This document shows positions 55,080 through 59,950 of a stretch of 64,000 nt of DNA, in pieces. The notes below the pieces were generated by a model, which saw only the letters and a program-made list of their open reading frames with translations, was not told the origin of the DNA and ran no database searches. The stretch spans positions 74,497,821 to 74,561,820 of the forward strand of contig JAHLJT010008756.1 in NCBI GenBank assembly GCA_031308135.1, written 5' to 3'. Source of the DNA: Acheta domesticus (taxonomy: Eukaryota; Arthropoda; Insecta; Orthoptera; Gryllidae). Positions within the stretch are counted from its first letter, which is position 1. Each line of letters begins with the position of its first letter. The translations under genes and the position numbers were made by a program.

Positions 55080-56709
55080 ACAACCTCTTTCGGCTCAAGG
55101 CTCACTTGCAAGTTTTTAAAATTTCTGTGAACCACTTCACCACTGATGATAAATGGCTCTCTGAGAGAACACAAGCTGATGTTTCCTCTGTGTTTAATAT
55201 TATTATTTTTTTAAATTGAAGATAAATTAATAATGATGAATTCAAAAGAATTAACAAAGTATTGTACATTGACTTGTACTAATAGTATAAAAATTAAAAT
55301 GCACTCCAACACAATAGACGTTAAGTTACACGTAAATAACAGGTTATATTTCTTCTCAAAATGTGAACTTCAGCAGATCCTTCGCGGACTACTTGAAGTC
55401 TGCGAGGAATTTATTCATAAACGAGTATAAAGTGTTTATGATGTTCATTTGATGGCATTCTCGCTAGAAATGGATCTTATATTGTCCAATTGAAGAGTTT
55501 AATTGAAAATTCTGATGCGCTGACAGTTATTGTTCGTGAAGAACATTAAGAACAAATATTGTACAACGAATTACATACGTATTGCGACACACTACGTGCA
55601 GCTTTATAGTCATCCACAATGAACTACTATCTCGCACGGTTCGCGGTGTCACTTTAAAACACTATGTAATACATTTGTCGGAGCACTGTTCTGCCTCTTC
55701 TTCAATCTTTAATTTTCCGTATAAACGAAGATGTTTAACAGTGGATACGTGCCATAATTATTTTAATGCTTCCGAGTGCATTAGGTCGGATTACCTTATC
55801 CGCAAATACTTATTGAGGGCTTCAGAAATTGAGTTTCCTATCCTAAGTTTCAAATTAGCCATGGACGTTACACTGACGCATGTGGCCACGTTTTAGTGAC
55901 ATGATTTGGAGGAATTGGTTTTAATAAAGTCTTCGGTGGAATTTACACAAATTTCATGCAAAATTACGTGAAAAGTACTAAAATTTTCGAAAAATTGTAA
56001 TATCTTATTTCAAAATCTATCTTTAAGGAACAGATTTCATTAAGGAAAAAATATATATCTTTATAATTGTAGTTGTAGGAAAATGCCGAAAAAATTGTGA
56101 AAATTTCAATTTTTGAAAAATCAGTACGAACGTGAGACCTACACCATTATCTTGAACGTCTTTACAGTATCCTACAACAAAATTTAATCAAAACGACTTA
56201 GCCATTTTTTTGAAAATTTTGAAAATGTCCCAGGGGGTTCATGTTAAGTACGCCCCAAAAGCGTTCACGGCCGGCCGGACGTTTTGCCGTCAATCGATTT
56301 TTCGCTATCCAGGATCCACAAAACATTGATTCTGGCTACACCACATGTTAGAGGATGTGGGAGAGAGGTCACTCATTTGAGAATCAATGCTGTTTATGAA
56401 GAATCGGTCACCTACGGGACACTCATTTTAACTGTCCACTATGAATTTACCACTGGTTTCTGAAGCTATTTCCACTTACATTTCTTTTTTCTCTCCGAGT
56501 CTGCGTAATACTGCGTCAAAACTGGAACTTCCAATTTTCAGTGTTTTCATTGTGGAAAAGTATTGCAACTCAGTTTAAATCATATAATATCGACGAAGTA
56601 TGACTTTCTTTACACGTAACACAAGACTGTTGCCTCTATAAAAGTATTCCATGCTTCACAAATCTTTTCCAGGAAGTTTTGATCGTACGTTGTCAAGTGT
56701 GATTGATTA
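55080..56709. other. unassigned AT-rich sequence
   Basis: 56090-56290 contains stretches of AAAATTTT-type words and, at 56263-56286, the inverted form of the CAAAACGTCCG..GTGAAC motif from 11.9 kb. A 104-codon frame at 55582-55896 has no motif. Confidence 0.4.
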
Positions 56710-58347
56710 CACTGGTCAACACTCATTTTCTTGCCAAACAATTTAAAGCCATTTTAGGGTATGTTTAATGTAGTATGTTAAATGCACAGATTCCAAATAT
56801 GGCATTGGTTTTGGTAGATTGGCTCTAGTTTTTGAGATAATGAAAATCACAAGGAAAATATTATTTTATTTTATTGAGTACAGGCTATTCGTAAATTGCA
56901 TAAAGCTTGAACTAAATGTAACTAGATATGCCTATTTATACAAAATTAAACTCTTCAAATATTTAATATTAATATATTCAATATATTTATATTTACAGCC
57001 TACAAAGAATCATAAAACATTGTATGATATCCTTTTATGCGACAAATCAGGGCAGTCACGTTGATGGCTCCAATAGTAATCTGCCATTGTGCCTATCCCA
57101 TCTGCCCTGATATCTAACTTCCATTACCGTTATTTCTTGATGGAACCGCTCTTTGTTCCTCACACATATTGCCATGATTTTCTGGAAATTTGTATATATA
57201 TGCATATGGAGAAAGTGTACCTTAATGCTCACAGTTGCACCCAAATTTTGAAAGTTTAAAAGCAAGTCTGCCATCCGTTTTGGATAATTTTCTGCTTTAT
57301 GATTACCCAAAAAGTTCTTGACAACTATGACAAAGCCTGTACCAATAACCAGTAAAGTGTTATTTTCGCTTCCAGTGTCAGACATTTCTTTTAGTCAGGA
57401 TGCTAAAAGTTGAGCTGCTTTGTTTGGCAAACTGAGAGCACGTGTTAAATCAATGAGCTTATCTTGGGAGAAGTGCTCTTTTGTAACAACACTTTCATCG
57501 TATTCACTGCCACTGCTAACTCTTGTATTGCACCCCAGAATCTGTGTATCCTCACTATCAGACACAGGACTTCCAGTGAGTGTGGTGAATATCAGGTCCA
57601 TGTAGCACAGGTCGCTCTGCTGATTCCAAATAAGGGTACTTCCTGTTCTTTTTCTTGCAACGATTGAAGACTTTTACGTTTACAGAACAAAAATAACAAT
57701 CATCAGGATTTTAGGGCTCTCGCCTTACCATCAGTACACCAAATTTTAAACTGTTCAGTTTTCTACTGACGGAGACACTTCACACAAGTTTTGCATAACA
57801 CATCAGGAGCCCACGACGTATCTTGATCACCCAATTTTATACCAAAATATCTTTTAATTATTTTTCTACGAAGTTCGTAATATTTCTTTTCTAATGAAAT
57901 ATTTCAATTACCTATCAAAACCATAATAATCAATATCATTCTACTTATCACCTCCATATGCACCTCCATATCACTTCGATATGTTTTTGTAGCGTAAATT
58001 CCCCACAAATGTAGTCAAATACATTAGTCATTCAAACAAGATCTTCCTGAAGAACTCATTGTTTTGTAACAAAAACAATGTATTAATAAAACGAAGCTCA
58101 ATTAAAGTATCCCGAAAATAATGCGATATACAATGTTTAAAATGAAAAAAAAACAGTGTTTGTATGAAGGTAGATATTTGCATAAGATGCTGTGAGGTTC
58201 GTGATAGTATCATTCATTACAGTGTTAATAGCACAAAAACTAGAGCCAATTCAGCAAAAATAATGACATATTCAGCGTACCCGATTTACTATAAATTCGT
58301 TGCAAAATCCTAGGCAAGTGAAAAACAGTTTTTTTTGTTGAGCAGTG
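56710..58347. mobile_element. 1.64-kb element with long imperfect inverted ends
   Basis: The left end starts CACTGGTCAACACTC and the right end, on the minus strand, CACTGCTCAACAAAA. The two ends remain alignable for over 100 bp inward and are strongest at ATTGGCTCTAGTTTTTG (56817 and, inverted, to 58253), preceded by AATATGGCATTGGTTTTGG and AATATGTCATTATTTTTGC. Between them lie minus-strand fragments of a widespread multicopy protein family. The structure is that of a DNA transposon with long TIRs. No clear target duplication was found, and I do not know the superfamily. Confidence 0.6.
57056..57601 (-). pseudogene. internally deleted copy of a widespread multicopy metazoan gene
   Basis: Two open segments follow each other. 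The upstream one (57601-57395) ends LIDLTRALSLPNKAAQLLAS. After a stop, the downstream one (57385-57056) has VVKNFLGNHKAENYPKRMAD, LNFQNLGATVSIKVHFLH, ERFHQEITVMEVRYQGRWD. From memory, these are the N-terminal and C-terminal ends of a family of uncharacterised proteins found in many copies in arthropods and cnidarians, normally separated by about 250 residues, so the middle is missing here. Function of the family is unknown to me. Its position between inverted ends suggests it is carried by a transposon. Confidence 0.6.
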
Positions 58348-58363
58348 TTATTGGTGTCGTTGA

Positions 58364-58969
58364 TTTTTAAAGATAAAATCTATACATTTACGCGGACACA
58401 TTATCAAGAGCATGTTTCAATGTTAAGGAAGTTTTGGGGGGCAGTTTCAAAGGTTGTATTTCGATGAGATTTTTGGAAGGGATCGTAGTAGTTGGCAAAA
58501 TTTCCATTTTAATATAAATGACATGCCAGTCCGTTGCTCAGAATATAAAAGAAACATATATTTACTAATTTCTTCTGTAGATCTCAGTTACGATTTCTTT
58601 CGTAATTATTTCTGTATTATTTCGATTTACTTTTATTTAATATAACTGATAAAATACGTTTCTATGTTATGCTCAATAATCAAATTCTTCCCCTCTTCTA
58701 AGGCTTGGTTGGACGAATGGGAAGATACGAAAGATTATTCTGACGATGGAAATTTTTTAGTGAAATCGAGATGTAAGTAGGTTGTAGTGGAATCTGTTTC
58801 ACAATGCTTAGGCTTTGTTGAAAATAACCCTAAGCGGTCCAATCTGGTTTTAAGTAATTTCGGAGTTTCCTGGTCACAAATTCAAATAAGTGATAACATA
58901 TCATTAAATTAGATATTGTGACATCGATTTGGAAGACCGCGTAAATGTATAGATTTTATCTTAAAAAAT
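58364..58969. mobile_element. 606-bp element bounded by 32-bp inverted repeats
   Basis: GATAAAATCTATACATTTACGCGG at 58372-58395 (with TTTTTAAA before it) recurs inverted at 58937-58969, essentially perfect over about 32 bp. GGAAGTTTTG-containing words also occur just inside the left arm and outside the right arm. No coding region. It starts 17 bp after the 1.64-kb element. Probably a MITE, of unknown type. Confidence 0.6.
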
Positions 58970-59950
58970 CCCCTGACAACAAAACTTCCTTGACAAAATT
59001 TGTAAATCATGAAATAATTTTTTAGAGCCAAGTCTTGTGCGTTATGTATAAAGAAAGTCATAATTCGTCGATATTATGATTTAAACAGAGTTGCAATACA
59101 TTTACACAATAAAAACACCGAAAATAGGAAGTTGCAATTTTGATGCAGTGTTACGCAGATACAGAAAGAAAAAAGAAATTTCAGTAGAAATAGCTTCATA
59201 AACCAGACGCCAAATGCATAGTGGACAGTTAAAATGAGTGTAAATAATATTAGTACCAATTGCCCATATATTTTTATACTTTCTCGCTACTGCTTATGCA
59301 ATATAGGAACAGTATTGTAAAGCTCCAGAAAAAACGGTGAATTTTCGGCACAAAAACTTATTGCCGGGCCTTAGTAAGGAAGCATTGGATACATCTTGTC
59401 CCTACATATAGTAAATTTACTATATAAGCACTTATATATTACATACAATTTGGTCGTATATAACTTATCTTTGTTGCATTGCCAAGGAAAGGGGTGTAAC
59501 GTGTTTGCGGAGTGTCACCAATGCTTGAATATTTTCTCCGTCTCGGCACATAAGTTATTGAGAGTGTGCAGTTCAAAAGAAAGGGCGACCATCGACACGG
59601 TACAATGCGTCTGTTTACATCGACTCTGCCGTTGGGTCGTCTATTGCTTGTCATCAATGTCATGTGGGTCTCATGGTGGGGTGGAACGAAAAGAGTAAGG
59701 GAAGGCTCCCTTGGGTTCCTTATACACACATCCAAACTATCATTGTGACGGACGTGGGTTGAAATAGTATTTTCCCTGTTTGAAAAGTATCTGCTGAATG
59801 GATGATAGGTAGGCAAACAGGGCTTTTGGTAGTAAGCGCACGCTCACACATATACAACATATTCAAGAGGAGGGAGAGGAAATAAAAAAAAGAGGAGAGG
59901 AAAAAGACGTGAGGGAGTACTTGATGAGTGGTAAAAAGCAAATGAGGCTC
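58970..59950. other. unassigned AT-rich sequence
   Basis: No gene recognised. A 125-codon minus-strand frame (59439-59816) has no identifiable domain. Confidence 0.4.

Follow-up and report, generated by a model that had tools for sequence, protein, structure and literature searches.

A degenerate element in the Acheta domesticus genome and its probable place among Chapaev3-type DNA transposons

INTRODUCTION

What kind of element lies at positions 56710 to 58347 of a 64,000-nucleotide (nt) stretch of the Acheta domesticus genome (the window; assembly GCA_031308135.1, contig JAHLJT010008756.1, positions 74,497,821 to 74,561,820 of the forward strand), and how is the protein found there in fragments related to it? 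An earlier note, made from the letters of this DNA, had placed the fragments between inverted ends and proposed that a mysterious multicopy protein was the cargo or the transposase of an undescribed DNA transposon. We conclude with high confidence that the element is a Chapaev3-type DNA transposon (Transib/CMC group), degenerate and non-autonomous: it was internally deleted, would have been mobilized in trans, and has since decayed. The mysterious protein is the Chapaev3 transposase, a distant relative of RAG1. Chapaev3 was assigned from published descriptions of the group.

RESULTS

Ends of the window copy

The window copy is 1,638 bp long, or about 1.55 kb without an insert private to it. 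Its terminal inverted repeats, CACTGGTCAACA at 56710 to 56721 (plus strand) and TGTTGAGCAGTG at 58336 to 58347 (minus strand), match at 11 of 12 positions and show that the coordinates proposed earlier were exact. Relative to the transposase gene, the left repeat is the 3′ end and the right repeat the 5′ end. The element begins with CAC, ends with GTG, and is flanked by a duplicated TTA (56707 to 56709 and 58348 to 58350) set between an A at 56706 and a T at 58351. Inside the terminal pair is a 69-nt subterminal inverted repeat with 71% identity (56796 to 56864, plus strand; 58204 to 58272, minus strand), and its 17-bp core, ATTGGCTCTAGTTTTTG at 56818 to 56834, has a perfect reverse complement at 58234 to 58250. 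The inverted ends around the fragments are therefore real. An imperfect target duplication of greater length (GTGTGATTGATT and GTGTCGTTGATT, with two mismatches) was also considered for this site and was dropped after related families showed 3-bp duplications.

A 12-bp pair with one mismatch might be a chance pairing, but this one is not, because other copies share its ends. A DNA search of the window's own assembly (2.33 Gb) with the element, in which the best 40 of 1,044 candidates were scored, gave at least 39 other copies with 87 to 92% identity over the longest piece. Counted by hand from the match table, 38 of these 39 start no more than 3 bases from the left end, and 28 come equally close to the right end (11 fall short). 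The query ran 2 bases beyond the element and cannot by itself show that similarity ends there; that similarity does stop rests on the five copies that we read, the window copy and four fetched ones. In the latter, wherever an end survives, similarity breaks off there or no more than about 20 bases away, the left end being lost in one copy and the right end in another.

The region also lies within a larger imperfect palindrome spanning 56419 to 59241, in which 56419 to 56681 plus 58362 to 58395 pair with 58937 to 58970 plus 58980 to 59241. The arms, about 265 bp long and 85% identical when inverted (97% for a 34-bp pair), enclose the region, and the inverted ends might thus belong to the palindrome instead of to a separate element. 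However, the left arm is split by the element (position 56681 is paired with 58980, and position 58362 with 58970), and the uninterrupted half was found nowhere else in the genome, while 56710 to 58347 has its other copies. We consider this explanation extremely improbable. Because its uninterrupted half is found only here, the palindrome is not an evident repeat family. The right arm was tried as an empty site of the window copy and was not clean, with a stretch by the junction unaligned.

Fuller copies in the same genome

The genome holds at least 79 matches to the protein (77 of 15,410 first-look candidates were scored in the protein search). We read 56 copies, comprising loci L001 to L030 and 26 of 27 further fetched loci; L052 was left out of the end counts, as it was fetched with the 55% group and its ends resemble those of family A. 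The copies form families A (L001 to L030; n = 30), B (L035 to L051, L053, and L054; n = 19), and C (L055 to L061; n = 7), and their ends were placed by alignment to each family's reference copy. The references are 2,250 bp with ends CACAGGCCTACA and CACAGGCCAACA (A), 2,258 bp with CACAGGTCTGCG at both ends (B), and 2,349 bp with ends CACTAGTCAACA and CACCAATCAACA (C). L002 and L005 were both counted, although their flanks are about 99% identical and suggest that the two are probably a single insertion that was duplicated.

Both CAC and GTG were present in 55 of the 56 copies (A, 30/30; B, 18/19, with one AAC; C, 7/7). The fuller members are flanked by such ends. The exact end sequence in the earlier note does not hold for all of them; families differ in it and have in common the CAC...GTG ends and an A-TWA-T site. 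An exact 3-bp target duplication flanked 51 copies (A, 29/30; B, 15/19; C, 7/7), and a 4-bp duplication only 1 of the 56. By sequence the exact duplications were 25 TAA, 22 TTA, 2 ATA, 1 TCA, and 1 TTT, so that TAA or TTA accounted for 47. The target site was preceded by A and followed by T in 50 of the 56 copies (A, 27/30; B, 17/19; C, 6/7). Because the target sites are so alike, mispaired flanks also match, at 33 to 43%; in 100,000 shuffles, the maximum was 35 duplications, and none reached 51. For the insertion L036, paralogous empty sites with a single TTA are present in the flanks of L030 and L029. L036 and L039, both in family B, seem to occupy one position of a dispersed repeat, in opposite orientations, and that repeat may contain a favored target; L039 is without an exact target duplication.

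In every one of the 56 copies, the protein match lies inside an element of 2.22 to 2.35 kb. The longest open reading frame (ORF) of each of the three reference copies is the family protein (566, 567, and 596 amino acids [aa]). The matched stretch is free of stops in 45 copies (A, 20/30; B, 19/19; C, 6/7); L023, L024, L025, L029, and L030 match only part of the length of P0001, a 562-aa relative. These observations bear on another reading, in which an unrelated transposon has picked up the protein as a host gene or as cargo. The state of the window copy, which is broken and without its catalytic middle, would agree with such an origin, but the position of the protein inside the element in all copies read, its place as the longest ORF of the reference copies, and its predicted transposase fold (see below) argue against it, and we give it almost no weight.

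Counting substitutions only, mean pairwise identity was 99.5% in family A, 99.68% in B, and 99.71% in C. Families A, B, and C of this genome are very young Chapaev3 families that may still be mobile; that at least one of them moves today we rate at somewhat below an even chance.

The protein family

A search with the window fragments gave 11 relatives at E ≤ 0.001 (best E, 1e-29), and tblastn of P0001 (E, 1e-27) supports the main window ORF, at 57056 to 57385, as a member of the family. With P0001 as the query, 2,152 proteins were found at E ≤ 0.01 among 7,984 candidates scored, and our description rests on 120 listed relatives of these. Their named sources include Hydra vulgaris, the worm lizard Rhineura floridana, the frog Phyllobates terribilis, and the beetles Onthophagus taurus, Pyrocoelia pectoralis, and Callosobruchus analis. 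The lizard member is 78% and the Hydra member 72% identical to P0001, and the family A transposase (L001) is 90% identical to P0047 over 565 aa; these sequence similarities would fit horizontal transfer. The sole bacterial entry among the listed relatives, P0104, is a close relative attributed to a Pseudomonadota metagenome-assembled genome and is probably animal DNA contaminating a metagenome bin. Scans of viral contigs with a few peptide patterns gave no relative, nor did one of genome contigs of bacteria and archaea with two patterns.

The residues conserved in P0001 include D259 (in WRLFIDSS), D313 (in DLK), C332-x2-C335, L380-H381, H489-x4-H494, and E511. All are invariant in alignments of 7 and 4 sequences, and in an alignment of 50 all are invariant except E511 (90% or more). 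DDE, C(2)C, LH, and H(4)H, with the catalytic residues assigned by motif, are conserved columns in these alignments. The N-terminal part has conserved cysteines (FCYICGE...C..C) and a weak zf-AD match in 3 of 7 members scanned (best E, 0.0033). A fold search with the predicted structure of residues 171 to 552 matched the RNase H-fold DDE core of RAG1/Transib-like transposases, so that the structure comparison, at the level of prediction, also points to a transposase. An initial guess, kinship with KDZ/Academ, was dropped after this search. Sequence searches of the PDB found no similarity, and a BFVD fold search gave 0 matches at E ≤ 0.001.

These proteins might instead define a new superfamily of DNA transposons that is merely Chapaev3-like, as the earlier note had in effect proposed. 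Pfam transposase models gave no match at E ≤ 1 to 7 members, no precomputed Pfam domain is present on any of the 120 listed relatives, the few names among them read "uncharacterized," "hypothetical," or "unnamed," and a literature search with six signature peptides found no paper that prints them. Against this, the testable hallmarks of Chapaev3 are present. Chapaev elements have 5′-CAC/GTG-3′ ends and 3- to 4-bp duplications; Chapaev3 inserts between A and T and duplicates TWA there, as paralogous empty sites confirm, and its transposase has C(2)C, LH, and H(4)H (PMC4079192). The size of the reference copies (2.25 to 2.35 kb) and of their proteins and the scattered animal hosts are also as in Chapaev3. 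A new superfamily is therefore very unlikely, if less so than the two alternatives above.

Of the proposal with which we began, a DNA transposon and its transposase are upheld, and cargo is not. Nor is "undescribed" at the level of superfamily or group, because published Chapaev3 elements match in ends, target site, motifs, length, and (as predicted) fold. The window family itself has probably not been individually described so far, a judgment made without comparison with Repbase. A transposase identity would explain the abundance of the protein in animal genomes.

Remains of the transposase and the deletion family

The words KVHFLH, RFH, and RYQGRWD, which first drew attention to the locus, all lie within the single minus-strand ORF at 57056 to 57385. 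Its 109 aa comprise about 15 junction residues followed by the C-terminal part of the transposase (KVHFLH, KERFHQE, and RYQGRWD); the final matched piece, MADYYWSHQRDCPDLSHKRISY, is in a different reading frame at 57022 to 57087 (minus strand). A 68-aa ORF at 57395 to 57601 (minus strand) holds the region preceding the catalytic core (FSQDKLIDLTRALSLPNKAAQLLAS). N-terminal remains in several frames (MSSSGRSC...YICGE...YFGIKLGDQD...DDCYFC) occupy 57588 to 58059 on the same strand; within them, at 57893 to 57981, is the private insert of about 89 bp, where other copies aligned without it. A Pfam scan of the two window ORFs was uninformative.

The internal deletion, with its junction at 57340 to 57385 (minus strand), removes about 245 middle residues (about 202 to 447 in P0001 numbering) and with them both motif aspartates, C(2)C, and LH. 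The junction is shared by all five copies read, the window copy and the four fetched ones, whose pairwise DNA identities are 85.8 to 91.7%. The 109-aa ORF has at least 150 matching places in the genome, its own locus included (the best 150 of 3,592 candidates were scored), and many of these matches include residues 1 to 15, the deletion junction, which has no clear counterpart in full-length relatives. From the shared junction, the divergence, and the copy number, it follows that the window family is an old, internally deleted, amplified one. Many of the 150 listed places carry the 109-aa ORF without a stop, despite the 8 to 14% DNA difference between copies. The best protein match of the window family to families A to C is 46% over 82 aa, to family A; on these sequences, none of the three is a close parent.

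DISCUSSION

Proposed origin

We infer catalysis, the size of the ancestor, mobilization in trans, and the order of events from the observed features (ends, target duplications, the empty sites of a related insertion, the shared deletion, copy numbers, motifs, and predicted fold) and from general knowledge of RAG1/Transib-type transposases. The autonomous ancestor would have been about 2.3 to 2.4 kb long, with one transposase of about 560 aa in which a RAG1/Transib-like RNase H-fold DDE core followed an N-terminal cysteine-rich region. In one copy, the middle of the gene would have been lost and both ends kept, and this copy would have multiplied; since the window family has no catalytic core, it must have been moved by the enzyme of a full-length relative. 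That enzyme would bind the CAC...GTG ends, and probably the subterminal repeats too, and move the element by cut and paste, with excision followed by insertion at A-TWA-T with a 3-bp stagger. The stagger would have produced the TTA duplication of the window copy, a copy that has since decayed.

Significance

The finding is well resolved but ordinary. Its use is to identify a protein family that more than 2,000 database clusters match. None of the 120 listed relatives has a Pfam domain, and the Hydra, worm lizard, and frog members go under "uncharacterized"; knowing the family as Chapaev3 transposase should keep it from being mistaken for host genes. Its predicted RAG1/Transib-like fold is in line with where the literature puts Chapaev3, next to the transposons ancestral to V(D)J recombination. 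The near-identical copies with open frames would be well suited to studies of what sets target-duplication length in RAG1-like enzymes. Should one of the young families prove mobile, it would be a natural active transposon with a RAG1-like transposase and a 3-bp A-TWA-T site, versus the 5 bp of Transib.

Comparison with known systems

For the Chapaev3 group, PMC4411706 cites a 2008 Repbase report by Kapitonov and Jurka; it groups Chapaev3 with Transib, TransibSU/RAG1, and Chapaev and describes an N-terminal "Chapa" zinc finger. In that region the proteins studied here have the conserved cysteines and the weak zf-AD match given above. Chapaev3 fragments are listed in a blowfly (PMC3630058). The closest counterparts of the families described here are Merrow, Garfield, and Conan (PMC4079192), which have the same CAC...GTG ends, A-TWA-T site, and DDE transposase with C(2)C, LH, and H(4)H. 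Garfield_BM, at 2,289 bp with a 556-aa transposase, is of like size. Chapaev3 likewise occurs in scattered animal hosts, vertebrate and invertebrate, among which it has repeatedly been transferred horizontally, and it has internal-deletion derivatives that were amplified. There are two differences: Merrow and Garfield have two exons, whereas families A to C have one open frame, as in most Chapaev3; and the window derivative, at 1,638 bp, is larger than the miniature inverted-repeat transposable elements of that report.

EnSpm/CACTA (CMC) elements are similar by description (PMC12730594), with CAC..GTG ends, 3-bp duplications, and both shared motifs, C(2)C and H(3-4)H; the same account treats Chapaev3 as a sublineage of Chapaev. 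The Pfam transposase models did not match the 7 members. With Transib, RAG1, and ProtoRAG, the family shares the predicted fold and the motif order D-D-C(2)C-H(4)H-E (shared motifs, PMC12730594), yet the PDB searches found no sequence similarity. Transib is described with 5-bp duplications (PMC4411706), in contrast to the 3 bp found here, where only a single copy of 56 agrees even at 4 bp, and the elements here leave little room for a RAG2-like gene.
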